Shown here: in pieces, positions 4,371-40,143 of the stretch
Layout: every line of letters begins with the position of its first letter
Numbering within the stretch: the first letter of the stretch is position 1
Assembly (NCBI RefSeq): GCF_000420345.1
Contig: NZ_ATUT01000016.1
Span: 1-49,052 of the forward strand
DNA from: Faecalicoccus pleomorphus DSM 20574
GTDB taxonomy: Bacteria > Bacillota_I > Bacilli_A > Erysipelotrichales > Erysipelotrichaceae
Direction of reading: 5' to 3'
DNA length: 49,052 bases
Program-made: the position numbers and the translations under genes
Notes under the pieces: model-generated
The model's input: only the letters and a program-made list of their open reading frames with translations
What the model was told of the DNA's origin: nothing
Databases searched by the model: none

Positions 4371-5275
4371 GCCTTGGCCATCTCCAACATCGCATCCATG
4401 GACTTTTTAGCTTTAACCATAACTTCTTCATCTAACACAATTTCATTTTTTTCATGCAACAAGACATCATACAATTTATCCAGAGTCACTTTTTTCATAT
4501 TGACACAGACAAGCTTATCGCTCATAATATGAAATTTTTTGTTCGGATTTTGTCTTTTCAGTTCGTAGAGCACACCCATCTCGGTACCGATGATAAATTC
4601 GGTATGCTCACTCTTAGTCGCATACTGTAAAATCCCTGCCGTGCTGCCGGCATAATCGGCCAGCTCAACCACTTCCTTTTTACATTCGGGATGCACTAAG
4701 ACCAATGCCTTTGGATACTTTTCTTTAGCTTTTAAAACATCTTCTTTAGACATGCGATGGTGTGTAATACAATAACCGTCATTTAAGATCACATTCTTTT
4801 CCGGGACCTGCTCTTTTACAAAAGATGCCAAATGCTGATCCGGGATAAAATAAATATTCTTATGCGGTAAGTTCTTGACGATCTTTACCGCATTGGAACT
4901 GGTCACACAGACATCACTCAATGTTTTTAGTTCTGCCGTTGAATTGACGTAACAGACAACCGCAAGATCATCAACTTCTTTTCGCATCTTACGAATATTG
5001 GAAACAACCGCCATATGCGCCATAGGACAATCGGCATTCATATCCGGCATTAGTACCTTTTTGTCTGGATTTAAGATCTTGGCACTCTCTCCCATAAAGC
5101 GAACACCGGCAAAAACGATGATTTGCGCATCGGTTTCCTTTGCCTTTTTTGCCAGCGCAAATGAATCACCGACAAAATCCGCAACATCCTGCACATCTCC
5201 CTCAACATAATAATGAGCTAAAATAATCGCATTCTTCTCTTGTTTTAGCTTTTGTATATCTTCCTTCAATGACAT
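4367..5275 (-). CDS. nadA: Quinolinate synthase NadA
   Basis: A 302-residue protein, the usual length for the short NadA type. It condenses iminoaspartate with dihydroxyacetone phosphate to quinolinate using a [4Fe-4S] cluster. Expected cluster ligands are Cys83 (NADCPMAH), Cys169 (DGYCITHH) and Cys257 (KLVCVNMKK), with spacing like the Thermotoga enzyme. The substrate-contact motifs AHYYVEGDVQDVAD and VHPECKKEV are present. It is the first gene of the operon and feeds directly from the NadB half of the next gene, which it overlaps by an ATGA-type junction. Confidence 0.95.
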   Translation of the reverse strand: MSLKEDIQKLKQEKNAIILAHYYVEGDVQDVADFVGDSFALAKKAKETDAQIIVFAGVRFMGESAKILNPDKKVLMPDMNADCPMAHMAVVSNIRKMRKEVDDLAVVCYVNSTAELKTLSDVCVTSSNAVKIVKNLPHKNIYFIPDQHLASFVKEQVPEKNVILNDGYCITHHRMSKEDVLKAKEKYPKALVLVHPECKKEVVELADYAGSTAGILQYATKSEHTEFIIGTEMGVLYELKRQNPNKKFHIMSDKLVCVNMKKVTLDKLYDVLLHEKNEIVLDEEVMVKAKKSMDAMLEMAKA

Positions 5276-19832: not shown

Positions 19833-21398
19833 TTATAGTGGTTTCGCAAAAGATTCAATCATCTTTTCCGCACATTTGATTCCATCAATGGCACTGGTCA
19901 TGATTCCTCCGGCATAGCCCGATCCTTCTCCACAAGGATAGATACCTTGAATATTAGACTGCAAAGAGGCATCCCTGACAAGTCTTACACTGGAGCTGCT
20001 TCTGGATTCGACAGCACTTAAAACGGCATCCTGCAGGCTGAAGCCCGGCATTCGTTTTTCAAAATATAATAATCCCTCATGTAAAGCGGCATTGACAGCC
20101 GGACTAAACAGCTGATTCAGATCCACAAAAGTCGTCTTTCTTTGATAGGTCGGAAGCACATTTCCAAAACCGGTGGAAATTCGATTAGCCAGATAATCCT
20201 TGCTGAGCTGCACACAGGCTCGATAGTCCTTGGCCATCGCAAAGGCTTTTTTCTCTAATTGCTCCTGATATTCCAGGCCGGCAAACAGATGCGTTCCATA
20301 ATCGGATGCATTGACTTGAACCAACAATGCACTGTTGGCATTTTCACCACTTCGATCAGCATAGCTCATGCCATTGATCACTAATTGTCCGATCGATGAA
20401 GAACTTGGGATCACATAACCGCCCGGACACATACAGAAGGAATAAACACCTTTTTGATTTTGTGCCGTCATAGAAAGCTGATAACGAGCTGGCCGAAAAC
20501 GATCATCTTCGGCCATTTCACGTAAGATAGACCGATCAACAAAGGATTGTTTATGCTCGATACGCACACCGACGGCAAACGGTTTATTTTCGATGATCAT
20601 TCCTCTTTTGGCACACATACGTACCGTATCTGTGGCACTATGGCCTATACATAAGATCAGCTGTTCACAGAGAATTCTTCCTTTTGATGTTTCTATCGCA
20701 TGCAGTTTTCCATCTTCTAAGATCAAATCTTGTAAAGCAGTATCATAATAGAAAGTACCACCCAAAGTTTCGATCGTCTCTTGCAGCTTCTTTAATACTG
20801 GTACGAAGCCATCAGTTCCTATATGTGGATGTGCATCGATCAAAATATCCGGATCAGCACCCATTTCAACCAGTTCTTCCAGCACCTTTCTAGCTCTGGC
20901 ATCTTTTGACCTTGTTGTCAGTTTTCCGTCACTAAAAGCTCCGGCGCCTCCCTGACCAAACTGTACATTGCACTCCGGATCAAGATCATCGCCATTCCAA
21001 AATGCCTGTACGACTTTTTGCCTGCGATCGATCTGACTGCCTCGCTCCAGGACGATTGGCTTATAGCCTTGTCTTGCCAACAGTAAAGCCGCAAACATTC
21101 CGGATGGACCAAAGCCGACCACTACGGGACGATGTTTTAAAGGCATGGTTCCGCAAGGAACATTGACATACGTTTCATCCGGTGTCACACTTACATCCCT
21201 CAGCTTTAAAAAGCGCTCTTCTTTTCGCACACAGGCATCGACAATATACGAAAAAAGGATCTTTTGATGACGAGCATCGATGCTTCTTCGATGAATCTGC
21301 CACGATAAAAGATCTTTTTTTGAAATATGAAGTTTTTTTAAGATCTGTGTCTCAATCTCATTTTCATTCAGACACTTGATTTGAGTAATTCGTATCAT
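19833..21398 (-). CDS. COG2509-type FAD-dependent dehydrogenase
   Basis: A 521-residue flavoprotein. An N-terminal segment of about 90 residues (KKLHISKKDLLSWQIHRRSIDAR) precedes the FAD-binding VVGFGPSGMFAALLLARQGYKPIVLERG. QFGQGGAGAFSDGKLTTR and the C-terminal FAD motif GIYPCGEGSGYAGGI follow. COG2509 proteins are widespread in Firmicutes and annotated as uncharacterised NAD(P)/FAD-dependent dehydrogenases; the reaction is unknown. The gene overlaps the upstream membrane protein by 4 bases and precedes yqeG by 25 bases, so it links the cell-wall genes and the housekeeping string into one operon. Confidence 0.88.
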   Translation of the reverse strand: MIRITQIKCLNENEIETQILKKLHISKKDLLSWQIHRRSIDARHQKILFSYIVDACVRKEERFLKLRDVSVTPDETYVNVPCGTMPLKHRPVVVGFGPSGMFAALLLARQGYKPIVLERGSQIDRRQKVVQAFWNGDDLDPECNVQFGQGGAGAFSDGKLTTRSKDARARKVLEELVEMGADPDILIDAHPHIGTDGFVPVLKKLQETIETLGGTFYYDTALQDLILEDGKLHAIETSKGRILCEQLILCIGHSATDTVRMCAKRGMIIENKPFAVGVRIEHKQSFVDRSILREMAEDDRFRPARYQLSMTAQNQKGVYSFCMCPGGYVIPSSSSIGQLVINGMSYADRSGENANSALLVQVNASDYGTHLFAGLEYQEQLEKKAFAMAKDYRACVQLSKDYLANRISTGFGNVLPTYQRKTTFVDLNQLFSPAVNAALHEGLLYFEKRMPGFSLQDAVLSAVESRSSSSVRLVRDASLQSNIQGIYPCGEGSGYAGGIMTSAIDGIKCAEKMIESFAKPL

Positions 21399-22405
21399 AC
21401 TAAATGCTCTAACAGCGGCACCCTTTCTTTATATCGGATCACTAAAGTCGCAAAGATCTGCGAGCAGGCAATCGTCAGAAAATAGACAACGATATGTGCA
21501 TTTGGTAAAAGCGACAACAACGGCTGGGCAAATAAAATATGCACAGTATAGATCAACAAGGAATCTTCCCGCAAGCTTCGATACGATGGCTTATAGGCGA
21601 TCTTGGATGTCAACAGGCAATTTCCCAAAAAGAAGGTAGCCGGGATCAAGCTTAAATACATGCAGGCCAAATCATGCATCATACCGGTCAAGATATAAAG
21701 GGTCACTTCGATCACCAACAACGCAAAGCTAATCACAAATGCCAACTGTGCCACACGGCATGGAATTCGCCTTGTCTTGGCCAACAACATCCCAATGCCG
21801 ATAAAGATCGGCGCGAAGAAGAAACCGTTTCTTGCGGTCGTCATGGTCTTTGTGAAAAAACTGAATAAAAAACTGATAAACGGAATCTGTTCCCACAAAG
21901 GCGCATAAATATTTAAAAGATAGCCGATTCCATACAATAATAACGCAATCTTCAAGGTAAACAACATACCCTTTTTATGATACAGGTAATACACGATCAA
22001 CGTTCCTGTCATTAAGGCCGGTAAAAACCATAAATGATAATACGAACCGTTTAAAAGAAAATCACGTAAATACGAAAAGATTCCCATCCAGCCCGATTGC
22101 GCCTGTACATAATTGTAGATCGTATAAGGCAAATAGATTACGGTCCAGATCAAATAAATTTTTAATAAGCGAAATAAATACTTTTTTAAAACATCCTTAT
22201 CTTCTTCCTCATTATGAATCTTACGAAATAGAAAATATCCACTGATCATAAAGAAGAAAGGAACGGCCAGACGACAGATCGTCTGGATAAAATACGTATT
22301 CAACATTTCATTGATATCAATGAAAGGAAACGTATGGATACAAACAACTAATAAAGCACTGACATACTTTGCGATATCAACAGCAGCGTACTGCTTCTTC
22401 ACCAT
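21395..22405 (-). CDS. Acyltransferase-3 family membrane protein resembling the VanT N-terminal domain
   Basis: A 336-residue protein with about ten membrane helices. Motifs: DIAKYVSALLVVCIHTFPF, CRLAVPFFFMISGYFLF, LLNGSYYHLWFLPALMTGTL and ARNGFFFAPIFIGIGMLL. These match, by recollection, the membrane domain of VanT serine racemases, where it is fused to the racemase and thought to bring in L-serine. Here it is a separate gene starting 1 base after a racemase gene. General Acyl_transf_3 members (OatA-like) modify cell-wall sugars, so that is the alternative. A GGAGAG site precedes ATG 22405. Confidence 0.8.
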   Translation of the reverse strand: MVKKQYAAVDIAKYVSALLVVCIHTFPFIDINEMLNTYFIQTICRLAVPFFFMISGYFLFRKIHNEEEDKDVLKKYLFRLLKIYLIWTVIYLPYTIYNYVQAQSGWMGIFSYLRDFLLNGSYYHLWFLPALMTGTLIVYYLYHKKGMLFTLKIALLLYGIGYLLNIYAPLWEQIPFISFLFSFFTKTMTTARNGFFFAPIFIGIGMLLAKTRRIPCRVAQLAFVISFALLVIEVTLYILTGMMHDLACMYLSLIPATFFLGNCLLTSKIAYKPSYRSLREDSLLIYTVHILFAQPLLSLLPNAHIVVYFLTIACSQIFATLVIRYKERVPLLEHLV

Positions 22406-22406
22406 T

Positions 22407-23561
22407 TTATTTTTCTCTCCTTCTTAATCGGGGAACTCTTCCGGCAATATCTGACAAAGTTTCATTGTTGATAGAATGCGATTTTCTTGAAATCTCATCA
22501 ATCGTAACTCGATGATCACCTTGCCTACCCACAAGTACGACAACATCCCCCTCTTTCACGTCATCGACCTGTGTCACATCGACCATACACTGATCCATGC
22601 ATACATTGCCGATAATCGGACATTTCTGTCCATGAATCAAAACTTCTAAACCACAATTCGATACTAAACGATGCAGTCCATCGGCATAGCCGACAGAAAC
22701 CGTAGCAACCTTCGTTGGTTTCGTGGCGATAAAATGTCGCCCATAGCTGACACTCTGCCCTTTTTGGATCCACTTGACCAAGCTGACATTGGCATACCAG
22801 CTAAGAATCGGAATAAAATCCGGTTTAGAGGCAATCGGAATCGCATCATCACTTGTAACGCCCATATACAACAACCCCGGACGACAATAATCCATCTTTA
22901 GGTCCCCATAATTCAATATCCCATAGCTATTCTGGATATGACGGATTCCCGGATTGATTCCTTCTTTTCTTAAATTGTCGCACACTTCTTCAAACAGTTC
23001 GATCTGTTTCTTGGTAAATGCGGCACTTTCCTGTCCCAGATCATCACTGACCGGAAAATGCGAGAAAATTCCTTCGACTATAAGGTGCTCCATTCGATAT
23101 TCGGCAAGAATCTGATCCATATTCTTTTCCTGTACCTGATAAATCACACCCGTTCGACACATACCGGTATCCACCTTACAATGACAGCGGATCTTTGTTC
23201 CGGCCTCTTTGGCATAGGCATCCAGCTTTTGTGCATAGTCATACGATACTAACGACTGAATGATGTTTTCTTCTATAAGGTAATGAAAATGCTCCGGCGG
23301 TGTATAGCCAAGGATCAAGATAGAATCATGAATCCCGTTTTGACGTAAATGAAGCGCTTCATCCACACTGCTTACCCCGAAAAAATCAACACCGACCTTT
23401 TGTAGAGCCTTAGCACATTCCACATCACCATGTCCATACGCATTGGCTTTGACGATGCCCATGATCTTTGTATCGCCCACAAGCTTTTGAATTTCTTCGA
23501 CATTGTGTGCAATCGCAGCATAATCAATTTCTGTCCAGCACCGGCTGTAGCTTTCTAACAT
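22407..23561 (-). CDS. Alanine racemase family protein, possibly serine racemase (VanT-like)
   Basis: A 384-residue PLP racemase. The PLP lysine is Lys38 in IMGIVKANAYGHG; SVSYGRHF carries the second catalytic Tyr and CMDQCMVDVT is the standard Alr loop. The stretches ILGYTPPEHFHYL, IIQSLVSYDYA and HIQNSYGILNYGDL recall VanT racemase domains more than housekeeping Alr. The residue before RVPR, a Tyr in Bacillus Alr, is Gly here, though this site varies. It supplies D-Ala and/or D-Ser for the ligase gene it overlaps by 7 bases. Whether it prefers Ala or Ser cannot be read with certainty. Confidence 0.85.
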   Translation of the reverse strand: MLESYSRCWTEIDYAAIAHNVEEIQKLVGDTKIMGIVKANAYGHGDVECAKALQKVGVDFFGVSSVDEALHLRQNGIHDSILILGYTPPEHFHYLIEENIIQSLVSYDYAQKLDAYAKEAGTKIRCHCKVDTGMCRTGVIYQVQEKNMDQILAEYRMEHLIVEGIFSHFPVSDDLGQESAAFTKKQIELFEEVCDNLRKEGINPGIRHIQNSYGILNYGDLKMDYCRPGLLYMGVTSDDAIPIASKPDFIPILSWYANVSLVKWIQKGQSVSYGRHFIATKPTKVATVSVGYADGLHRLVSNCGLEVLIHGQKCPIIGNVCMDQCMVDVTQVDDVKEGDVVVLVGRQGDHRVTIDEISRKSHSINNETLSDIAGRVPRLRRREK

Positions 23562-24610
23562 ACGCCGACCTTCCTTTGCATGGCCAGTTCAATCAAACGG
23601 TCAATCAGATCCGGAAATGCAAGTCCGGCTTCTTTCATCATGGAAGGATAACGACTGGTTGCCGTAAAGCCCGGAATCGTATTCAGTTCGTTTAAGATGA
23701 CTTCACCTTCGGTTGTCAAAAACATATCGACACGAGCCAGACCGGTACAATTCATCGCACGATAGGTACGATACGCAAGCGCCTGTGCTTCCTTAAACTG
23801 TTTTTCATCGATCCTTGCCGGACAGATGATATCGGCGCCTTTATCTTCGTACTTACCTTCAAAATCAAAGATGCTTCCGGCAATCTGTATCTCATCGACA
23901 CTGCCGCAAAAAACTGTTTCATTTCCCATGACAGCACAACCGATTTCAAAGCCTTCAATGGCTTTTTCCACCAGGATCTTTCCTCTGCCATCATAGTAAA
24001 ACGCATCCTGACAAGCATCTTCAAAGTCTTCTTTTTTCTCTACTTTATGCACACCGTAGCTGCTTCCCGCATTACATGGTTTGATGATCCAAGGTAATGG
24101 AATCTTTGCTTCGATTTCTTCAAAGCTGGGATTATCGCCCCATTTTTTCAAACAGACATAGTCTGCACAAGGAATGTTGGCTTCCTTACACAAAATGTGC
24201 ATGATTTCTTTATCCATGCTGATAGCTGAGCTCATCACATCGCAGCCAACATAATGAATGTTCATCAGCTCCAGCAAGCCCTGCATACAGCCATCTTCTC
24301 CGTTTTTTCCATGCAGGATCGGAAAGGCTACATCGATATCTATTTTCTGCTCCGGCTTTTCCAGGCTGATCACACCCTTATGGATAAAAGCACAAGGTGT
24401 ACAAGAACCTTCCTTTTTCCATGTATCATGTTCTATATCTTCAATGCTTCCATCATATAAATAAAAGATTCCATCGGAATCGATCCCAATCAAAATCAAA
24501 TTATAGTTCTCCTGACGAATCTGACGCAAAAAAGAACCTGCCGAATGTAAAGAAACAGAATATTCCGAACTCTGTCCTCCAAATAAAACCGCAAGATTTA
24601 ATTTATTCAT
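23555..24610 (-). CDS. D-alanine-D-X ligase, VanG-like (D-Ala-D-Ala or D-Ala-D-Ser ligase)
   Basis: A 351-residue ATP-grasp ligase. LAVLFGGQSSEYSVSLHSA has EYSVS where Ddl and VanA have EHEVS; VanG-type enzymes have an EYEVS form. Other segments, AFPILHGKNGEDGCMQG, GCDVMSSAISMDK, VDEIQIAGSIFDFEGKY with ICPARID, and NELNTIPGFTATSRYP, align closely with VanG as I remember it. Such enzymes make the depsi/dipeptide ending of the peptidoglycan stem; VanG/VanC types make D-Ala-D-Ser, lowering glycopeptide affinity. ATG 24610 follows AAGGGG. It lies between murF and the racemase. D-Ser specificity is inferred. Confidence 0.85.
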   Translation of the reverse strand: MNKLNLAVLFGGQSSEYSVSLHSAGSFLRQIRQENYNLILIGIDSDGIFYLYDGSIEDIEHDTWKKEGSCTPCAFIHKGVISLEKPEQKIDIDVAFPILHGKNGEDGCMQGLLELMNIHYVGCDVMSSAISMDKEIMHILCKEANIPCADYVCLKKWGDNPSFEEIEAKIPLPWIIKPCNAGSSYGVHKVEKKEDFEDACQDAFYYDGRGKILVEKAIEGFEIGCAVMGNETVFCGSVDEIQIAGSIFDFEGKYEDKGADIICPARIDEKQFKEAQALAYRTYRAMNCTGLARVDMFLTTEGEVILNELNTIPGFTATSRYPSMMKEAGLAFPDLIDRLIELAMQRKVGVC

Positions 24611-24612
24611 TT

Positions 24613-25974
24613 CTATTCCCCTTTCAAGGCACTGACAACTTCGTCCATAGCCATAGCTCTTGAGCCCTTGATTAAAATCGCACAATCTTGATCTTTATAT
24701 TTCCGTAATGCTTCTATCATTTCTTCCTTGGTTTCAAACCAGGCTTTTTCTTTGCCCCGGAAGCCTTCTACCGTAAATTTCGTTAACGGTCCATATCCAT
24801 ACAGCACATCTATATTCTTAATCGAGGCATATTCGCCAATTTGCAGATGGAGATCTTTTTCGGTCGGTCCTAAATCCAGCATATCCGCCAGACAGGCAAT
24901 GCGAAAAGACACCGGCAGACTCTCTAGTGCATCGATTGCGGCTTTGGCACTCTCCGGATTAGATTTATACGAATCATCCAGTATCATATAGCCATTGGCC
25001 TTAACAAGCTGCATACGCATCTTTGTCATTGTTAAATGTTGAAGACCATATAAGATCGACTCTTGTTTCAAACCACAATACAGTCCAATATAAATACACG
25101 GTAACGCATTAGAAGCCTGAATCGCACCTAATGAATGAAGAATCACTTTCTGATCCAAACAAGAGCAGGTAAATTCAATGTGATCTTCCTTAGTTTCAAT
25201 ATCTGATGTCAGGATCACATCACCGCCACATCCAAAAGAAACGATTTTCTTGGAAGGATCGATCTGCATTTCCTGTAAGCATTCATCGATTTCCGGACTT
25301 GTCTTATCATATAAAAACAAACCGTTTGGCTTTAAATTCTCCAGAATTTCCAGCTTTGCCTGGGCAATTTGTTTTTTCCCGCCCAGATTTTCCATATGAG
25401 CACTGCCAATCGTCGTGATCACTGAAATATCCGGTGGAGCAATCGAACATAAAAACTCGATTTCTCCTTTATTTTCCATACCCATTTCCAAAATGGCCAC
25501 TTCAATATCCGCATCAAAATCCAGAACCGTTAAAGGCAAACCGATCTCATTGTTTCGATTTCCCTGGGTCTTCTGTGTTTTCTTCTCCTGTGAAAAAATA
25601 GAATACAACATATCTTTACAGCTTGTCTTCCCGTTCGATCCGGTCACGGCAATCACCTTACACGATAAAGACTGTAAATAGGCTTTGGCCAATTGTTGTA
25701 AAGCCTGTGTTGTATCTTCTACCAGAACCAATGCCATATCTTCAGGATATGGCTTATGATCCTTTTGCCAAAGACTGGCTTTGCATCCAGCTTTGCGAAC
25801 ACTATCCACAAAGCTATGACCATCGACTCTTTGCCCCAATATGGGAATATAAAGATTCTCCGGTCTTACTTCTCTTGAATCTATACAAACACCATGGATC
25901 CTAAAATCGCTCTCATCCTGGATACAAGGTGCATTTAAATACGCTGCAACTTCCTGAATGGTTTTGTTTATCAT
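24613..25974 (-). CDS. murF: UDP-MurNAc-tripeptide:D-alanyl-D-X ligase MurF
   Basis: A 453-residue Mur ligase. The order is the MurF N-terminal domain (GVCIDSREVRPENLYIPI), P-loop VIAVTGSNGKTSCKDML, GNRNNEIGLPLTVL, ILEMGMENKGEIEFL and the C-terminal domain. It adds the terminal dipeptide to UDP-MurNAc-tripeptide in the cytoplasm. The usual YNANP signature reads YKSNP (DDSYKSNPESAKAA), which may be lineage-specific or related to the dipeptide used. It is the first gene of the twelve-gene operon, with an extended -10 promoter just upstream, and ends 2 bases before the ligase gene. Confidence 0.93.
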   Translation of the reverse strand: MINKTIQEVAAYLNAPCIQDESDFRIHGVCIDSREVRPENLYIPILGQRVDGHSFVDSVRKAGCKASLWQKDHKPYPEDMALVLVEDTTQALQQLAKAYLQSLSCKVIAVTGSNGKTSCKDMLYSIFSQEKKTQKTQGNRNNEIGLPLTVLDFDADIEVAILEMGMENKGEIEFLCSIAPPDISVITTIGSAHMENLGGKKQIAQAKLEILENLKPNGLFLYDKTSPEIDECLQEMQIDPSKKIVSFGCGGDVILTSDIETKEDHIEFTCSCLDQKVILHSLGAIQASNALPCIYIGLYCGLKQESILYGLQHLTMTKMRMQLVKANGYMILDDSYKSNPESAKAAIDALESLPVSFRIACLADMLDLGPTEKDLHLQIGEYASIKNIDVLYGYGPLTKFTVEGFRGKEKAWFETKEEMIEALRKYKDQDCAILIKGSRAMAMDEVVSALKGE

Positions 25975-31812: not shown

Positions 31813-31935
31813 ACTAACGCCACTTACTAAAGTATATCATATTATGACATATTTGCGCTAATTTTCATTGTGGGTGATACGGACGACAAATTTTGCACCA
31901 TTTATATAATTGTGACCATCTTACTTAATCACTAC

Positions 31936-32121
31936 CTTCTGCGCGGCGGCTACCTCGACTATAGCTCGCTCTACGCTGCAGGATCAGGCGGTTATTATTG
32001 GTCATCTACTCCGTATTCGTCAAGCTACGCTTATTACTTGAGTCTCTATTCGGGCGGCGTCAGCGCCAGCAATGGGTACCGCTACAGCGGTTACTCTGTC
32101 CGTTGCATGGCTGCTGGGTAG
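31936..32121 (+). pseudogene. Orphan C-terminal tail resembling a DGR variable region (C-type-lectin fold)
   Basis: About 60 codons end in a Tyr/Ser/Gly-rich segment: GGYYWSSTPYSSSYAYYLSL, then a GVSASNGYRYSGYSVRCMA close. This is the C-terminal CLec/FISUMP-type fold used as the variable region of diversity-generating retroelements. Many codons at exposed positions are TAC, TAT, AGC, GGC, the expected products of A-to-N change of AAC/AAT. The upstream part of the gene is missing: before about 31936 the frame runs into unrelated AT-rich sequence. No reverse transcriptase or template repeat is in the window. A hairpin follows the stop. It could instead be a plain FISUMP-domain fragment. Confidence 0.6.
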
Positions 32122-32167
32122 TTGTTGGTGGCTAGGCAGTAGTGATAAATAGACATACTGTCATGCT

Positions 32168-32194
32168 GACGCACCTACGGGTGCGTCCTTTTTT
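32168..32194 (+). terminator. Hairpin terminator after DGR-like tail
   Basis: A perfect 8-bp stem GACGCACC / GGTGCGTC with a four-base TACG loop is followed by six T. DGR variable regions are often followed by a hairpin with 8-bp stem and 4-nt loop that aids homing, so the element may be dual purpose. Confidence 0.8.
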
Positions 32195-32478
32195 ATGAAG
32201 TTGGAGAAAATATCCAACAGATCCAGACTCAAAATCTTCCATTCTGTCTTATATCTAGTAGGGAGAAAAATATCCCCAACCCATTATTCGAGCATTAAAA
32301 TAAAATATTTTCAAGTTTATTCCATCCCACTCGCCTGCAAAATATCAAATTATCCGCCCCTGTTATTCTTTTCGCCCAGGTGTCCGATTGCCCCAAATGC
32401 AGCCTAGAAAAGTCCTTGCCATATCTGTAAATTGTGCTTTAATCAGGGCAGGTTAATTACAGAAAGGAGTGTGTACAT
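32195..32478. other. Non-coding stretch in the island
   Basis: No convincing gene. Short frames here lack ribosome sites. The last 20 bases supply the AGAAAGGAG site of the following small ORF. Confidence 0.6.
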
Positions 32479-32745
32479 ATGGCACAAAATAGCAATATCA
32501 GCATAAGCAGCGCAGCTGCCAGATTTATAAACACGCCTATTGGCAGGAAGAAAAGAGCGGTAAGCAGCAAGAAGCCCGAGACCTACCGCCTGACGCATCG
32601 AGAAGAGAACAAAGCCAAGAAAAGGCCGCAAACTGCGCCGACCGTACGTTCTTTGGAAAACGACTTTCTCCCTGTTTCCAGGGAGTCCACCCCTAACCAG
32701 CGCGCCGGGACGACTTTAAGGGGTGGCCTTTTCCGAACGCCCTGA
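32479..32745 (+). CDS. Small basic hypothetical protein in the island
   Basis: An 88-residue frame with a good AGAAAGGAG site before ATG 32479. It is rich in Arg/Lys/Ser/Thr and has no recognised domain. The 3' part of the frame (about 32685-32730) contains an imperfect hairpin, CCACCCCT paired with AGGGGTGG, so the C-terminal residues may be coding read-through of a structured intergenic element. It lies 23 bases before the HTH/zinc-finger gene. It could be a real accessory peptide or a remnant of a longer gene. Confidence 0.4.
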   Translation: MAQNSNISISSAAARFINTPIGRKKRAVSSKKPETYRLTHREENKAKKRPQTAPTVRSLENDFLPVSRESTPNQRAGTTLRGGLFRTP

Positions 32746-32768
32746 TAAAAGAAAGGAGAATCACAAGT

Positions 32769-33077
32769 ATGAGGAGAACCATGACAGAACAACAGTTAGA
32801 ACAGATTGCCGCACTGCGGCGGGAAAACTACCCCTACAGCTTTATTGGCCGGGAGTTAGGACTATCCCCCAATACGGTAAAGTCCATCTGTCAGCGCAAA
32901 GGGTTTGCGGCCAGTGGGGCGCGGAAGACTAAGGCGGAAAAGCAGAACGCCCCGCTCTGTCGCTATTGCCATAAACCATTGCCGGAAACAAAGCGGCGAG
33001 GAGCGCTCTTTTGCTCAGACTATTGCCGCACCAAATGGTACCGGGAAAACCGGAAAGTTATGGCAATCAGGACTTGA
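32769..33077 (+). CDS. HTH plus zinc-finger protein preceding the recombinases
   Basis: A 102-residue protein. Residues 5-45 (LEQIAALRRENYPYSFIGRELGLSPNTVKSICQR) form a sigma-70 region-4-like/Hin-like helix-turn-helix. Residues 63-90 contain a four-cysteine zinc finger (CRYCHKPLPE...FCSDYC). Such small proteins commonly precede pairs of large serine recombinases in clostridial elements and may control recombination directionality or expression, but this is unproven. AAAGGAG precedes ATG 32769. Confidence 0.75.
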   Translation: MRRTMTEQQLEQIAALRRENYPYSFIGRELGLSPNTVKSICQRKGFAASGARKTKAEKQNAPLCRYCHKPLPETKRRGALFCSDYCRTKWYRENRKVMAIRT

Positions 33078-33123
33078 CTTCTCCGGGCAAGAGAGTGATG
33101 AATGGTGGCAGGAGGTAAAGATT

Positions 33124-34455
33124 ATGCGTATTGAAGAAATACCGGCTAGTCCGAAGAAACCCAAAATCACCCGCGTGGCAGCTTATGCCCGGGTTTCTTC
33201 CGATAAGGATGCCGCCTTCCACTCACTGGAAGCCCAGACGGAATACTACCAGAATTATATTGCGGCGCACCCGAACTGGGAGCTAGTAGCCATCTACTCA
33301 GATAACGGAATCTCCGGCACGACCATCCACCGCCCGGAGTTCCAGCATATGCTGCAGGACTGCCGGGAGGGTAAGATTGATCTTGTGATCACCAAATCGG
33401 TGACCCGTTTTGCCCGGAATACAGTCATCCTGCTGGAGACGATCCGGGAGCTCAAGAAGCTGGGGGTTGACTGCTACTTCGAGAAAGAAGACATGCACAG
33501 TATCAGCCCAGACGGAGAACTGCTTCTGACGCTTCTTGCAATGTACGCCGAGGAGGAAGCCCGGTCAGCCAGTGAGAATCAGAAGTGGCGGATCCAGAAA
33601 CTATACGATCAGGGTAAACCTGCCGGAGGCCACACTTTCGGCTATCGTTTGATGGGTGAGAAGTTTGAGGTCGTGCCGGAAGAAGCAGAGATTGTCAAAG
33701 AGATTTTTCGGCTCTACCTTTCCGGTATGGGCTACAGTAAAATCGCCAGAACGCTAATTGAGCAGCACATCCCAGCCTACTTTGGTAGCACCTGGTCTGT
33801 CGCATCTGTCAGAAACATTTTGCTAAACGAAAAATATGCCGGTGACCTGCTGCTGCAAAAGACCTTCAGTGAGGATTTCCGCACCAAGAGGAAGCGAAAA
33901 AATACCGGAGAGCTCCGTAAGGTATATGTCAGGAACAGCCATGAAGCAATTATCGACAGGCAGACATTTGAGACTGTCCAGCAAGAAATCGCCCGCCGCA
34001 GCGCTCGTCAAAGAGAGATTATGGCGCACAGAAATCCCAACCACGACAATAGTCAAAAGCTATTCTCTGGCCTGATTGTGTGCGGCTGCTGCGGCGCTGC
34101 TTACGTCAGAAAATACACCAACATCAAGAATAGTGACCGGCCAATCTGGATCTGCGGCCAATATACCAAATACGAAAAATCCGTCTGCCACTCGCAACAA
34201 ATACCAGAAACCATACTGATCGAGAAAGTCAAAGAAGTCTTAGGACTACCAGAGATAAACCAAACCATCGTGCAGGAACATATTTCCCGCATCACGGTTC
34301 CAGAACACAACCATCTCATCTACGAACTAAAGAACGGCTCCTCGGTAGACGTATTCTGGAAACATCAGTCCCGCAGGCTGAGCTGGACGGATGAGATGCG
34401 CGAGGCAGCACGGCAAAAAACCTTAAAGCGATACAGGAAGGAGGAAAAATCATAA
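33124..34455 (+). CDS. Large serine recombinase A (intact)
   Basis: A 443-residue large serine recombinase. The resolvase domain (about 17-160) has catalytic Ser25 in AAYARVSSDKD, the SDNGISGTT segment and TKSVTRFARNT with the catalytic Arg. The Recombinase domain (about 175-285; PAGGHTFGYRL, GYSKIARTLIEQ) and a zinc ribbon (CGCCGAAYVRK...CGQY...SVCHS) follow. It cuts and rejoins attachment sites through a phosphoserine link. ATG 33124 is chosen for AGGAGGT 9 bases upstream; the frame open from 32905 is an out-of-phase reading of the preceding gene. Recombinase B starts 2 bases after its stop. Confidence 0.92.
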   Translation: MRIEEIPASPKKPKITRVAAYARVSSDKDAAFHSLEAQTEYYQNYIAAHPNWELVAIYSDNGISGTTIHRPEFQHMLQDCREGKIDLVITKSVTRFARNTVILLETIRELKKLGVDCYFEKEDMHSISPDGELLLTLLAMYAEEEARSASENQKWRIQKLYDQGKPAGGHTFGYRLMGEKFEVVPEEAEIVKEIFRLYLSGMGYSKIARTLIEQHIPAYFGSTWSVASVRNILLNEKYAGDLLLQKTFSEDFRTKRKRKNTGELRKVYVRNSHEAIIDRQTFETVQQEIARRSARQREIMAHRNPNHDNSQKLFSGLIVCGCCGAAYVRKYTNIKNSDRPIWICGQYTKYEKSVCHSQQIPETILIEKVKEVLGLPEINQTIVQEHISRITVPEHNHLIYELKNGSSVDVFWKHQSRRLSWTDEMREAARQKTLKRYRKEEKS

Positions 34456-34457
34456 GT

Positions 34458-35727
34458 ATGCCAGAAATAGAGATCATCGCGGCGACCAAAACACTGCAAC
34501 AGCAGCCGCTATCCGTGGCAGCTCGTAAAAAGCGGGTTGCGCCTATGCTCGGGTTTCTACGGAACAGGACGAGCAGCAATCCAGTTATGAGGCGCAGGTG
34601 GATTTCTATACCCGTCACATTAAAAGCAATCCTGACTGGGAGTTTGTAGAAGTGTTTGCGGATCGCTGTATTACCGGCACCAATACCAAGAACCGGGAAA
34701 ACTTCAACCGGATGATCGATCTGGCTTTGAGGGGCGGCATCGACATTATCCTGACCAAATCCATTTCCCGCTTCGCCCGGAATACAGTGGATACACTTCA
34801 AACCGTACGGGAACTCAAGGCGGTCGGCGTCGAGGTACGTTTTGAGAAAGAGAACTTACATACTTTTGATCCCAAGTGCGAGATGATGCTCACGATCATG
34901 AGCTCTCTTGCTCAGGAAGAAAGCCGCTCCATCAGTGAGAACGTCCGTTGGGGTAAGCAGAAAAGTATGCGGGACGGGAAAGTGTCCCTGGCCTACTCAC
35001 GTTTCCTCGGCTATAAAAAGGGCGCGGATGGCAGGCCGGAGATTGTGGAGGAAGAAGCTGCTATTATCCGCAAAATCTATGACTTATTTCTATCCGGCAA
35101 GACCATCAATGAAATTGCCGCCATCCTGACGAATATGGGCGTCCTAACGCCAGCAGGCAGAACCAAATGGAGCATCAGCACTGTCCGCAGTATTCTCAGT
35201 AACGAGAAATACAAAGGTGAGGCCTTACTCCAGAAAACCTTCACTGTAGACTATCTCACCAAAGAAGTCGGAAAAACAATGGTGAGGTGCCGTCTGTCCG
35301 GGTACGCAATTCTCACGAACCAATTATCGAGCCGGAAGTGTTTGACCGGGTGCAGTCGATGTTGGCGATATCCGCCAAGCGCCGGGCGAAAGTACGCACC
35401 AGACATCCTTTTGCCGGGAAGCTCATCTGTGGCGACTGCGGCTCCTTTTATGGTCACAAAGTCTGGCGGCTGCGCAGTACAGGCGAGCATTACAATGTTT
35501 GGTACTGTAACCACAAGTACGACGGCGACAAGACCTGCGATTCTCCCAGACTCCGGGATGAGGAAGTCAAAGCGGCCTTTGAGAAAATGCTGCAAAAATG
35601 TGACGATCCCAATCCTGTCTATACCGATGAGAGATGGAACGAGTTGGTGGAGTCCGTCAAGGTCTGCCGGGGCGGCCACCTGATCTTCACCTTAACGGAG
35701 GGCAGGGTTGTGAAGGTTACGCTCTAA
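34458..35727 (+). pseudogene. Large serine recombinase B, broken by two 1-base deletions
   Basis: Three frames together give a full-length recombinase: MPEIEIIAATKTLQQ... from 34458; AYARVSTEQDEQ (catalytic Ser) and onward from about 34543; then SVRVRNSHEPIIEPEVFDRV to the zinc ribbon (ICGDCGSF, WYCNHKYDGDKTC) from about 35287. Restoring one base near 34540 (GCGCCT for expected GCGGCCT) and one A in the run at 35272-35276 (five A for six) rejoins everything. Each shift is -1. AGGAGG precedes the ATG. No single frame keeps catalytic and DNA-binding domains together, so it should be inactive unless the indels are sequencing errors. Confidence 0.85.
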
Positions 35728-35830
35728 AGGCATTGATTACATCACGGCTTACAATGCTTATACGCCGTAAAATAACATCAAAAACAATAGATAGCCACTG
35801 CTACCATTCTGTAATCACATTAATTAACGC

Positions 35831-35859
35831 TTGACAGACTCCTGAGACTTCACTACAAT
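35831..35859 (+). promoter_or_regulatory. Consensus promoter before the nitroreductase-MATE operon
   Basis: TTGACA (35831-35836) and TACAAT (35854-35859) are exactly 17 bases apart. The transcript would start near 35866 and meet a terminator before the first gene. Confidence 0.8.
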
Positions 35860-35907
35860 GATAATCGTAAAATTTGAGTGGACTTTTCCGGATTCGGTCA
35901 TCTTTTT

Positions 35908-35945
35908 GCCACACAACTGTTCTGTAATAGTTGTGTGGCTTTTTT
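35908..35945 (+). terminator. Leader terminator/attenuator before nitroreductase gene
   Basis: A perfect 11-bp stem GCCACACAACT / AGTTGTGTGGC (10-nt loop) followed by six T lies between the promoter and the gene start at 35993. It would end the leader after about 75-80 nt unless read-through is induced. Confidence 0.8.
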
Positions 35946-35992
35946 GTTGCCTGTATCTCGGAAATGTTGACAGAATGGAGGATGATTTTTTT

Positions 35993-36514
35993 ATGGAAAA
36001 CAACTTCTTATCTCTGATCAAGACGCGCCGCAGTGTAAGGGCTTATAAATCGGAGCCTGTCCCTTCCGAGGCGCTGGACGCTGTACTGGAAGCGGGGACT
36101 TACGCACCTACTGGCGGAGGACATCAATCTCCCACTATCATTGCAATTACAGACCCCAAATATAGACAGGAGATTGCAAAACTAAATGCAGAAGTGATGG
36201 GAAGCAATGCAGACCCCTATTATGGCGCGCCTGTCGTGATTTTGGTTCTGGCAGATGGCTCCGCAAGCACCTTTGTCGAGGATGGAAGCTGCGTTCTTGA
36301 AAATATGATGCTCGCTGCCCATGCCCTTGGTCTGGGAACCGTATGGGTGCATCGGGAACGTGAGATTTTTGACAGTGAAAAAGGCAAGGCTCTCCTGCGG
36401 GAGTGGAAGCTGCCGGAAACCTTGCGCGGCGTCGGTGCGATTGCATTGGGTTATCCAGCCCAGGAAGCCGGTCAACCCGCAGCACGCAAACAAAACTATA
36501 TTGTTCGGATTTAA
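35993..36514 (+). CDS. Nitroreductase-family FMN oxidoreductase
   Basis: A 173-residue nitroreductase: LIKTRRSVRAYKSEPVPSEA (FMN-phosphate Arg/Ser), AGTYAPTGGGHQSP, and the C-terminal LRGVGAIALGYPAQEAG with FMN contacts. These enzymes reduce nitro compounds, quinones or flavins with NAD(P)H. ATG 35993 follows GGAGG at 11 bases; the frame upstream to 35858 runs through the terminator and should not be used. It is the first cargo gene, followed by a hairpin and a MATE exporter. A detoxification role fits the neighbourhood. Confidence 0.9.
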   Translation: MENNFLSLIKTRRSVRAYKSEPVPSEALDAVLEAGTYAPTGGGHQSPTIIAITDPKYRQEIAKLNAEVMGSNADPYYGAPVVILVLADGSASTFVEDGSCVLENMMLAAHALGLGTVWVHREREIFDSEKGKALLREWKLPETLRGVGAIALGYPAQEAGQPAARKQNYIVRI

Positions 36515-36522
36515 TGTCCTGC

Positions 36523-36551
36523 TGTCCGGCGCAGTTTTCCTGCGCCGGACA
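36523..36551 (+). repeat. Perfect intercistronic hairpin
   Basis: TGTCCGGCGCAG / CTGCGCCGGACA is a 12-bp GC-rich perfect stem with a TTTTC loop between the nitroreductase stop and the MATE start. No T run follows, so it is more likely an mRNA stabiliser or processing site than a terminator. Confidence 0.75.
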
Positions 36552-36574
36552 ATTTGTGGACGAGGAGGTAGAGT

Positions 36575-37936
36575 ATGCAGACGAATAACAAAATGGCGGT
36601 TGCTCCTGTCGGAAAGCTCATCTGGCAAATGTCGCTGCCACCGCTGATCTCCATGTTTCTGCAATATTCCTATAATCTGATAGACAGCGCGTTTGTAGCG
36701 CGTCTGAGTGAGAATGCGTTGACGGCTGTTTCTCTGTCATTCCCGATTACAACCCTGATGAACGCAGCGTCCATCTGGATCGGTGTCGGTGTGAATGTAT
36801 TGATTGCAGGGTATCTTGGGGAGAGAAAGCAAGATGAAGCAAATATCACCGTTACACACGGATTGTTACTGGCCTTTGGAATTGGGGCTTTGCTCAATCT
36901 TCTGTCATTGCTGATTATGAAACCCTACTTTCGGGCATTCACCAATAATGAAGAAATTTATCAGTTGAGCATTGCCTATATGAGCGTATGTTCGTTCATG
37001 CAAATTCCCAATATGGTGCATATCGCCATCCAGAAGATGATACAGGCCACCGGAAATATGGTCGCTCCCATGTGGTTCCAGATTGCGGGCGTGGTGGTCA
37101 ATTTTGCGCTCAATCCCATTCTGATTTTTGGTGTTGGCATTTTCCCCACTATGGGAATCCGTGGCTCTGCGGTGGCTACTGTTGCAGGCTATTTGCTGTC
37201 CATGATTTTGGCATTTGTCTTGCTGCTGGGCAAAAAACAGAAAGTGCGGATAAAGATCAAAGGATTTCGTTTGCAAAAGCGGCTGATCGGCCGCATTTTC
37301 GCCCTTGGACTGCCGTCTTTCATTATGAATGCCCTCAGTTCGTTTATGGTGACGTTCGTCAATCTGTTTCTGGTGGCGTATTCCGATACGGCAATCGCTT
37401 TCTTCGGCGCGTATTTTAAGGTGCAGCAGTTGATCGTTATGACGGTAAACGGCTTGATCCAGGGCTGTTTGCCTGTCATGCGGTTTAACTATGGCGCGGG
37501 CAACAGTGAAAGGCTGCATGCCGCTTTCCGATACGGAACTGCTTTGGTCACTGGCATGATGATACTGGGGACGTTGGCCATCCTCCTCTTTCCAGCGCAG
37601 ATTTTGGAATTATTTACGGCGTCGGAAGCCATGCGCTCCTTTGGAATATCCGCTATGCGGATTATGGCGGCCAGCTACCTGTTTTGCGGCCTCTCTACGA
37701 TGATTTCCACCTATTTTCAGGCTACAGAACAATTAATGCCCAGTATGTTGATTCAACTGTTGCGGCAACTTCTCCTGCTCATTCCATTCATGTGGTGCTT
37801 GGAAAAGCTCCTGAAGATTACCGGGATCTGGCTGTCCTTTCCTGTCGCCGAAGCGACAACATTTGTTCTGGCATTCCTGCTTTTTCAGGCAGGCAAGAGA
37901 AAAGAAGCACTTTGTGGCGATGCAAAGACACAGTAG
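36575..37936 (+). CDS. MATE-family multidrug exporter 1
   Basis: A 453-residue MATE transporter with twelve predicted helices: WQMSLPPLISMFLQYSYNLIDSAFVAR in helix 1, a second half starting LPSFIMNALSSFMVTFVNLF, and the typical MRFNYGAGN loop in the second half. It exports cationic drugs using Na+ or H+ gradients. GAGGAGGT precedes ATG 36575. The gene is island cargo, 21 bases before a GNAT gene. The substrate is unknown. Confidence 0.92.
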   Translation: MQTNNKMAVAPVGKLIWQMSLPPLISMFLQYSYNLIDSAFVARLSENALTAVSLSFPITTLMNAASIWIGVGVNVLIAGYLGERKQDEANITVTHGLLLAFGIGALLNLLSLLIMKPYFRAFTNNEEIYQLSIAYMSVCSFMQIPNMVHIAIQKMIQATGNMVAPMWFQIAGVVVNFALNPILIFGVGIFPTMGIRGSAVATVAGYLLSMILAFVLLLGKKQKVRIKIKGFRLQKRLIGRIFALGLPSFIMNALSSFMVTFVNLFLVAYSDTAIAFFGAYFKVQQLIVMTVNGLIQGCLPVMRFNYGAGNSERLHAAFRYGTALVTGMMILGTLAILLFPAQILELFTASEAMRSFGISAMRIMAASYLFCGLSTMISTYFQATEQLMPSMLIQLLRQLLLLIPFMWCLEKLLKITGIWLSFPVAEATTFVLAFLLFQAGKRKEALCGDAKTQ

Positions 37937-37957
37937 AAATCAGGAAGGAGAGACAAT

Positions 37958-38377
37958 ATGGAGATACAGATTAAAAAGGGGCTTGATTCCCTACAAACAG
38001 AAACAGTACTTCGCCTTCTATCACAGACTGTATGGGCGTGCAGCAGGAGGAAAGAAGCAATTATTGAGTCATGGAAACATTCTGTCTGCTATGGAGCTTA
38101 TACCGCTGACGGAAGACAAATCGGATTTGCGAGAGTTATAACAGACTATGCCACCCAGTACTATATTTGCGATGTTGTTGTGGATGTGGATTTCCGTCAC
38201 AGAGGTGTAGGTACTTCTCTCTTAAAAACGATTACAACAGAAGATACCTACCGTTCCTTGCTGGGCATGCTGATCACAGAAGAGGCTGAACGGTTTTATG
38301 AGCCCTTCGGTTTTCGAAAAGATTCAATCTGTTTTATGACAAGAAAAGGAATACCGGAGGTAGCCACGAATGAATGA
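37958..38377 (+). CDS. GNAT-family N-acetyltransferase
   Basis: A 139-residue GNAT protein. VVVDVDFRHRGVGTSLLKTI contains the acetyl-CoA pyrophosphate-binding R-x-x-G-x-G motif (RHRGVG), and FYEPFGFRKDS is the usual C-terminal motif. It transfers acetyl from acetyl-CoA to an amine, possibly a drug given the MATE neighbours. AAGGAGAG lies upstream of ATG 37958. Its end overlaps the second MATE gene by 8 bases. Confidence 0.88.
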   Translation: MEIQIKKGLDSLQTETVLRLLSQTVWACSRRKEAIIESWKHSVCYGAYTADGRQIGFARVITDYATQYYICDVVVDVDFRHRGVGTSLLKTITTEDTYRSLLGMLITEEAERFYEPFGFRKDSICFMTRKGIPEVATNE

Positions 38378-39702
38378 TACTTTCATGAAAGAGAAGCCGG
38401 TATTGCCGCTGATTTTATCCATGTCATTGCCTATGGTGTTATCCATGCTGGTCAATTCTCTCTACAACATTGTCGACAGCTTTTTTGTCGCGCAGATCAG
38501 CGAGGAAGCGATGACAGCGTTATCCCTGGTTTACCCGGTTCAAAATTTTATCAATGCTGTGGGCATTGGGTTTGGCGTTGGGATCAATGCAGTGATCGCC
38601 TTCCATCTGGGCGCTGGGGATCATGGAAAAGCGGATCAGGCCGCCGCACAGGGACTTGTGCTTGCCGTGATCCACGGCGTTGTTATGACAGTCTGCTGTA
38701 TCGCAATCATGCCGGTTTTTTTTACGAATGTTCACTTCATCCGAAACGGTCATTGAACTTGGCGTCCACTATTCTGTCGTTGCGTTTGCTTTTACACTCA
38801 TCGTTACCGTCAGCATGGCATTTGAGAAACTGTTCCAGGCAGTAGGAAACATGAAAACAACCATGATCAGCCTGATGTACGGGTGTATCACAAACATCAT
38901 CTTAGACCCCGTTCTGATTTTTGGCTATGGCCCATTCCCGGAAATGGGGATCGAAGGCGCTGCGCTGGCAACCGGCATCGGGCAGGCCCTGACGCTGGCG
39001 ATTTATCTGGTCGTCTACTTTGTGCGGCCCATTCGCGTGCATATCCGCAGGCAGTACGTTCTGTCCGGCAAAAAGATGGTAATAAAACTGTACTCTATCG
39101 GCATCCCTGCAGCCTTGAATCTTGCGCTTCCGTCTCTTTTGATTTCGGCACTCAATGGGATTTTAGCGGCATATTCCGAAGTGTATATTCTGGTTTTGGG
39201 AATCTATTACAAATTGCAGACATTCATCTATCTTCCGGCGAATGGCATTGTGCAGGGGATGCGCCCCCTGATCGGCTATAACTACGGTGCGGGCGAGAGC
39301 AAAAGGGTCAGCCAGATTTATCAGATCGTTTTGTGCATGAGTGGTATTATTATGGTGTTTGAAACAGTAATATGCCTACTGATCCCAGGCCAGTTGATGG
39401 GGCTGTTTACCCACACAGAGGCGACGATTCGGGCCGGGGAAACGGCCCTGCGTATCATCGGTGCCGGTTTTATCGTCTCGACGGTTTCTGTTACCTCTTC
39501 CGGCGCATTGGAGGGACTTGGAAAAGGCACCCCGTCCTTACTGATTTCCCTTTGCCGGTATGTAGTAGTTATTATCCCGACTGCGTTTTTACTCAGCAGG
39601 CTTTTCGGAGCGGTTGGCGTCTGGAATGCATTTTGGATCACAGAGGTGATTACTGCGATCATTTCCATTTGTGTTTACCGCAAGGCAATAGCAAGGTCGT
39701 AA
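38370..39702 (+). pseudogene. MATE-family exporter 2, frameshifted in a T8 tract
   Basis: Two frames (38370 to about 38723, and about 38724 to 39702) make one MATE transporter of about 444 residues: ILSMSLPMVLSMLVNSLYNIVDS at the start, IGYNYGAGESKR in the second half. The break is at eight T (38716-38723); seven T would give the expected continuous VFLRMFTSSE. GGAGG precedes ATG 38370. As written the protein stops after 128 residues. A slippery T tract could allow low read-through or phase switching, or the gene may be dead; a sequencing error is also possible. Confidence 0.85.
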
Positions 39703-39982
39703 TCAACTATGCTGTCCGAGGTAAGATTTACCAGTTGTATCAGAGGGAAAAATGGGAGATTTCTTTATGGCGTATCAATAAGCGCCTCAAGTTGCTCCGC
39801 AGTGCTTTTTCTATTGTGCAAAAAACATCCGTGTCACCCCTAAGAAAAAGCGGTGCGGAGAGAATCTTCTGCGTCAGAAGTGGTGTGGCAGACCAATTAT
39901 GAAAATCAGCCTTTTTCCTCTCATTTTCCCCATTGGTGCAATCTGATCTCCAAGCGAAACCTGAAATAATCAAAAAGAGCGT
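39703..39982. other. Tail of the island without a convincing gene
   Basis: 280 bases after the MATE stop. A minus-strand frame (39740-39997) lacks a ribosome site and known domains and runs into the tRNA-Pro terminator. I see nothing else that can be supported; the right end of the island should lie here. Confidence 0.5.
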
Positions 39983-40066: not shown

Positions 40067-40143
40067 TGGTCGGGATGACAGGATTTGAACCTGCGACCCC
40101 TTGCACCCCATGCAAGTGCACTACCAAGCTGTGCTACATCCCG
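40067..40143 (-). tRNA. tRNA-Pro(GGG)
   Basis: A 77-nt cloverleaf on the minus strand: acceptor CGGGATG / CATCCCG, discriminator A, encoded CCA. The anticodon stem CTTGC/GCAAG holds a loop ATGGGGT with anticodon GGG. The TTCAAAT T-loop is present. It is transcribed with a long 3' trailer containing repeat R. Confidence 0.95.

Follow-up and report, generated by a model that had tools for sequence, protein, structure and literature searches.

A VanG/VanT-like ligase and racemase in the murF operon of Faecalicoccus pleomorphus suggest a housekeeping D-Ala-D-Ser route to peptidoglycan

Glycopeptide drugs act by binding D-alanyl-D-alanine (D-Ala-D-Ala), and a gut bacterial family with only a D-serine-type (D-Ser-type) ligase would be intrinsically less sensitive to them. 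A four-gene cluster of Faecalicoccus pleomorphus DSM 20574 raises the question of whether this bacterium ends its peptidoglycan stem in D-Ala-D-Ser by means of an ordinary housekeeping operon. The window, by which we mean the whole stretch of DNA analysed, comprises 49,052 nucleotides (contig NZ_ATUT01000016.1, assembly GCF_000420345.1), and in it the genes for MurF, a Ddl-family ligase, an Alr-family racemase and an AT3 membrane protein lie contiguously in one tightly packed operon (lengths in amino acids, aa; PLP, pyridoxal phosphate):

24613..25974, minus strand: murF, UDP-MurNAc-tripeptide:D-Ala-D-X ligase, 453 aa, first gene of the operon (TIGR01143, 403.9 bits against a cut-off of 288.6)
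23555..24610, minus strand: Ddl-family ligase of predicted D-Ala:D-Ser type, 351 aa, ATG start (VanG model, residues, tree, structure match)
22407..23561, minus strand: Alr-family PLP racemase with VanT-type Asn (N366), 384 aa (vanT-G-Cterm match, 4ecl, Asn, VanT clade)
21395..22405, minus strand: AT3 (Acyl_transf_3) membrane protein, 336 aa, homologous to the N-terminal membrane domain of VanT (PF01757, NF033132)

The ligase and racemase genes overlap by 7 bp and the remaining spacings among the four genes are 1-2 bp. Pfam and NCBIfam assign the products to MurF (E 7.8e-121), Dala_Dala_lig_C (E 1.7e-62), Ala_racemase_N (E 4.6e-61) and Acyl_transf_3 (E 3.1e-28). An original prediction, made from the sequence alone, had described murF, an ATP-grasp ligase, a PLP racemase and a membrane protein side by side on one strand and had singled out the segments EYSVS, FDFEGKY/ICPARID, RLAVPFFFMISGYF and YHLWFLPALMTG; we found all four genes in place and every one of these motifs. 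It had further claimed a chromosomal D-Ala-D-Ser-type pathway built into the housekeeping operon, a claim that finds support in the active-site residues, the trees, the structure match, the gene neighbourhood and the presence of a single ligase and a single racemase gene in the genome. We consider it likely that the operon provides a constitutive housekeeping pathway for the two terminal residues of the peptidoglycan stem, producing mainly D-Ala-D-Ser with the help of one dual racemase. This reading draws on the observed gene set and order, single copy, residues, phylogeny and covariation, from which the substrates, the product and the phenotype are predicted.

The top NCBIfam model for the ligase is VanG (E 8.6e-124), yet the score lies under the cut-off of that model. 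Alignment with the VanG structure 4fu0 revealed that ligase residues D239, F248 and R320 are the equivalents of VanG D243, F252 and R324, all conserved, which we take to be the D-Ser determinants published with the VanG structure. D, F and R occupy the same three positions in VanC1 and VanA/B as well. The ligase additionally carries the Lys-Tyr (KY) omega-loop motif, as do VanC and VanG; VanA/B are without it. Canonical Ddl enzymes of the same order read G-Y-M at the three positions in the sister family and E-L-gap in the family of Faecalicoccus itself, and the combination of D-F-R with KY was present in 131 of the 166 ligases surveyed. The ligase is about 43% identical to VanG and to VanC1, and its AlphaFold model (predicted local distance difference test score, 91) matched VanG 4fu0 best, with DdlA and VanA behind.

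In our trees the D-Ala:D-X (D-X) ligases VanA/B/C/G, the window ligase included, form one clade (SH-like approximate likelihood ratio test, SH-aLRT, 98 in one tree; 100/99 in another), and the window ligase stands outside the D-Ala:D-Ala ligases. The phylogeny proposed as a check thus placed it with VanA/B/C/G and not with housekeeping Ddl. A canonical D-Ala:D-Ala ligase would lie outside the D-X clade and lack the D-Ser residues, and the window ligase does neither. Within the clade, van-cluster and D-lactate ligases constitute a group of their own (92/87) and the window ligase belongs to a group of operon ligases from Erysipelotrichaceae; how the operon lineages branch at the deepest level is weakly resolved. 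The nearest named relative is the ligase of Faecalicoccus acidiformans (83%; strain DSM 26963 has the operon too), and that of an uncultured Faecalicoccus reaches 86%.

The order murF-ddl-alr-AT3, without vanXY, is conserved in Faecalicoccus and across many genera of the Erysipelotrichaceae, although AT3 is absent from some of them. In other groups (Lachnospiraceae, Paenibacillus, Amphibacillus and others), ligases of this family occur mostly in ddl-vanXY-vanT clusters without murF. This distribution bears on the possibility that an acquired van-type resistance module replaced the native ddl and alr genes and then lost vanXY and vanRS. Such a history would fit the enzyme families shared with van clusters and the canonical Ddl that persists alongside the D-Ser operon in the related genomes G017, G022, G252 and G200. 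We nevertheless regard it as very improbable: the operon ligases are not nested among the van-cluster ligases (with the reservation that the deep D-X order is weakly resolved), the gene order is kept in many genera with murF upstream of the operon ligase wherever readable, and no mobile genes are present at the locus. Searches of phages and plasmids returned only van or ordinary Ddl genes, all below 60% identity. The operon enzymes appear to form a lineage sister to those of van clusters and not to be a captured resistance cluster.

The closest solved structure to the racemase is 4ecl, the catalytic domain of VanTG, a serine racemase. Residue N366, within SINNETLSD, sits at the position of Alr Tyr354 and VanTG Asn696, at which Tyr presumably marks an alanine racemase and Asn a VanT-type serine racemase. 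Asn occupies this position in nearly all racemases of related operons and in nearly all VanT proteins, and Tyr in almost all canonical Alr proteins of the same order. The racemase tree unites the operon enzymes with VanT in a single clade (SH-aLRT 98), separate from canonical Alr. Given that the enzyme combines the VanT-type Asn with being the only racemase of the Alr family in the genome, it is a probable dual Ala/Ser racemase.

The membrane protein aligns with the whole membrane domain of VanT and is matched by models of that domain (NF033132, positions 4-328, E 1.8e-46; NF000033, E 4e-34); Foldseek with its predicted structure gave no usable match. The AT3 His is kept, as is (K/R)x10H, which we take to be a typical AT3 acyltransferase motif and which is conserved in 88 of 89 homologues. 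Because of this conservation, acyl transfer appears no less plausible a role than the uptake of L-Ser that has been assumed. The AT3 domain of VanT itself is described as having no recognised function (PMC12423673). Racemase and AT3 protein are homologous to the two domains of VanT; they differ from it in being two separate polypeptides with the racemase first, whereas VanT is one fused protein, and the AT3 gene is hence removable on its own. The original prediction had called this arrangement a split, reversed VanT. The separation and the reversed order are as it described, but descent from a fused VanT did not stand: the trees suggest a sister lineage with racemase and AT3 as separate genes, and for this reason the unfused state may be the original one.

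Copy number was addressed by whole-genome searches of F. pleomorphus DSM 20574 (G000; 1.99 Mb, 99.91% complete). The protein search found Ddl in one place only, namely the operon. The Pfam Ddl C-domain returned the ligase gene and weak matches in long ATP-grasp enzymes, one of them biotin carboxylase-like and the others within a frame of 1074 aa, about as long as a carbamoyl-phosphate synthase. Likewise, the racemase is the only Alr: of the two other proteins matched by Ala_racemase_N, one (206 aa) is YggS-like and the other decarboxylase-like. For D-amino-acid transaminase, an alternative source of D-Ala, the genome search gave a sub-threshold match only and none above the cut-off. Neither VanX nor any Peptidase_M15 was found genome-wide, and three VanY-type carboxypeptidase-like proteins are encoded on contigs other than that of the operon. 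The suggested search for a second ddl/alr pair and vanXY therefore yielded neither second copies nor VanX, and by inspection no vanXY, vanR or vanS is among the reading frames around the operon, in agreement with what had been claimed for the neighbourhood. Among the outcomes said to speak against a D-Ser pathway, a ligase that is the only ddl of its genome is what we found, and grouping of that ligase with housekeeping Ddl is not.

The cluster thus shares with VanG/VanC clusters (vanG/vanC, vanXY, vanT, vanRS) the ligase, racemase and AT3 families, the equivalents of D243/F252/R324 with KY, and the racemase Asn. It differs in lacking vanXY, vanR and vanS at the locus, VanX in the genome and a second Ddl, in being embedded after murF with racemase and AT3 separate and in reversed order, and in scoring under the curated VanG/VanT cut-offs. 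A van resistance operon requires vanXY (or vanX/vanY) and vanRS, and the Faecalicoccus cluster falls outside that definition. With the housekeeping Ddl/Alr of other Erysipelotrichales it has in common the reactions needed for peptidoglycan and a ddl gene adjoining murF, whereas those ligases carry G-Y-M or E-L-gap, the racemases mostly Tyr, and both lie outside the D-X and VanT clades. The known precedent for intrinsic D-Ser precursors is Clostridium innocuum, whose intrinsic resistance is ascribed in PMC8888209, which cites David et al. 2004, to two chromosomal genes and precursors ending in serine. That pathway resembles the present one in being chromosomal, intrinsic, from the same bacterial family and based on a D-Ser-type ligase and a racemase; serine-ending precursors are reported for C. 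innocuum.

In the pathway that we propose, the single racemase would make both D-Ala and D-Ser, the ligase would couple D-Ala, bound at site 1, with D-Ser at site 2, and the resulting dipeptide would be attached by MurF. The AT3 protein would probably raise the supply of D-Ser or perform an acyl transfer. VanXY and VanRS would be unnecessary, because there would be no D-Ala:D-Ala ligase to silence and no D-Ala-D-Ala to clear, and low-level insensitivity to vancomycin would be a by-product. The chemistry is known; what would be new is a sole, housekeeping D-Ser pathway without vanXY and vanRS.

Several points weigh against this proposal. The ligase misses the curated VanG cut-offs (412.8 bits against 495 for NF000091; 352.5 against 520 for NF000207) and the racemase, although matched by vanT-G-Cterm at E 1e-127, reaches 426 bits and stays under the curated 460-bit cut-off; at the same time, the ligase clears the general ddl subfamily cut-off and the racemase that of alr. 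Since the curated VanG/VanT cut-offs are missed, we refrain from classifying the enzymes as VanG or VanT, and our claim is that they would work like VanG and VanT rather than being VanG and VanT. The rules leading from residues to specificity are, for both enzymes, ones that we take as given. The pairing of residues in the two enzymes has an exception in one relative, G012, where the racemase next to a D-F-R ligase carries Tyr. No vancomycin minimum inhibitory concentration is reported for Faecalicoccus in the literature searched. Finally, the D-Ala:D-Ser ligase VanC2 keeps some D-Ala:D-Ala activity (PMC12004154), and as such ligases can do so, mixed precursors are possible.

Together with the single-copy state of ligase and racemase in a housekeeping operon, the family cut-offs and the dual activity of that characterised D-Ser ligase would also suit a housekeeping D-Ala-D-Ala system that merely resembles VanG/VanT, in which the ligase makes mostly D-Ala-D-Ala in vivo owing to low cellular D-Ser and the racemase acts chiefly on alanine. 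We judge this unlikely in view of how the two enzymes vary together. Many genera retain both the full set of D-Ser determinants in the ligase and the Asn in the racemase, and genera g66 and g68 (L244-L247; four sampled genomes, G285 and G271 among them) have lost both. There the same murF-ddl-alr operon encodes a ligase with Y-Y-L, similar to I-Y-L in E. coli DdlB, and an adjacent racemase with D or S instead of N. This joint change is the strongest sign in the sequences and suggests that D-Ser use is under selection. If the D-Ala-D-Ser reading is true, the D-Ser module would be part of essential metabolism, and the lineages changed in both enzymes would serve as internal natural controls.

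How widely a D-Ser-type ligase stands alone was surveyed across the order in genomes at least 90% complete, with a Ddl match at E 1e-30, a threshold that a very divergent Ddl could escape. A verified D-F-R ligase was the only Ddl match in at least 28 Erysipelotrichaceae genomes from 14 genera; since canonical Ddl is picked up elsewhere by the same search, the lack of a second Ddl in these genomes is informative. Among relatives, Longicatena caecimuris and Dielma fastidiosa retain a further Ddl match next to the operon, and Faecalicoccus has none. We lean slightly towards the broader proposal that an Erysipelotrichaceae lineage including Faecalicoccus has abandoned D-Ala-D-Ala, that its wall is obligately D-Ala-D-Ser, made with a single bifunctional racemase and a single D-Ser ligase, and that the van D-Ser enzymes are cousins of this housekeeping module and not inventions under drug pressure; the finding bears on the origin of those enzymes. 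Annotation would label the two enzymes of such bacteria 'D-alanine-D-alanine ligase' and 'alanine racemase', and resistance-gene screens would miss them, as there is no van cluster and the scores lie under the curated cut-offs. Among the non-subscription papers listed by a full-text literature search, none combined Erysipelotrichaceae with D-Ala-D-Ser. Holdemania massiliensis and Merdibacter are both reported to be vancomycin-susceptible, and neither could be linked to a particular kind of ligase; the description of Dielma states no vancomycin phenotype.

The survey also returned variants of the operon. Genus g51 (L238-L243, L278) has murF-ddl-alr with a D-F-R ligase as sole Ddl match, an Asn racemase and no AT3 beside it, making it a candidate, on these residues, for intrinsic glycopeptide insensitivity. 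A diagnostic 16S primer of Erysipelothrix matched none of 315 genomes, complete ones included; the operon, if that genus carries it, would offer an explanation for its intrinsic vancomycin resistance (minimum inhibitory concentration 32 mg/L; PMC9637936). In L053, L054, L248 and L252-L254, murF and ddl are fused into one frame of about 770-810 aa with D-Ser-type residues (in L254 the third residue is cut off). A 607-aa open reading frame (ORF; L249:6235-8058) that follows a D-F-R ligase matches both VanXY and racemase, an apparent VanXY-racemase fusion. In genus g58 (G236-G244), G237 and G240 have the D-Ser operon and the remaining genomes give matches no stronger than those of canonical Ddl, an apparent ligase swap within the genus.

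Downstream of the AT3 gene, and overlapping it by 4 bp (translationally coupled), lies one further gene, named by recognition of its translation (FAD, flavin adenine dinucleotide):

19833..21398, minus strand: FAD-dependent protein

Past it, the chain goes on into yqeG-yqeH-yhbY-nadD-like frames, likewise named by recognition of their translations. Scans for promoters and terminators gave nothing above chance.

Elsewhere in the window, positions 32000-39900 have a G+C content of 0.47-0.52, compared with 0.36-0.45 around them, and a reversed GC skew. This stretch holds two serine-recombinase-like ORFs (32905-34455 and 34598-35683), a nitroreductase-like ORF and MATE transporter-like ORFs, ends near a tRNA-Pro (40067-40143) and looks like an integrated mobile element. 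At its edge, a short Tyr/Ser-rich ORF (31870-32121; GGYYWSST...YSGYSVRCMAAG) resembles the end of a surface repeat domain. A 710-aa ORF at 2238-4370 reads as a fusion of L-aspartate oxidase (NadB) and quinolinate phosphoribosyltransferase (NadC), and adjoins a NadA-like gene (4367-5275).

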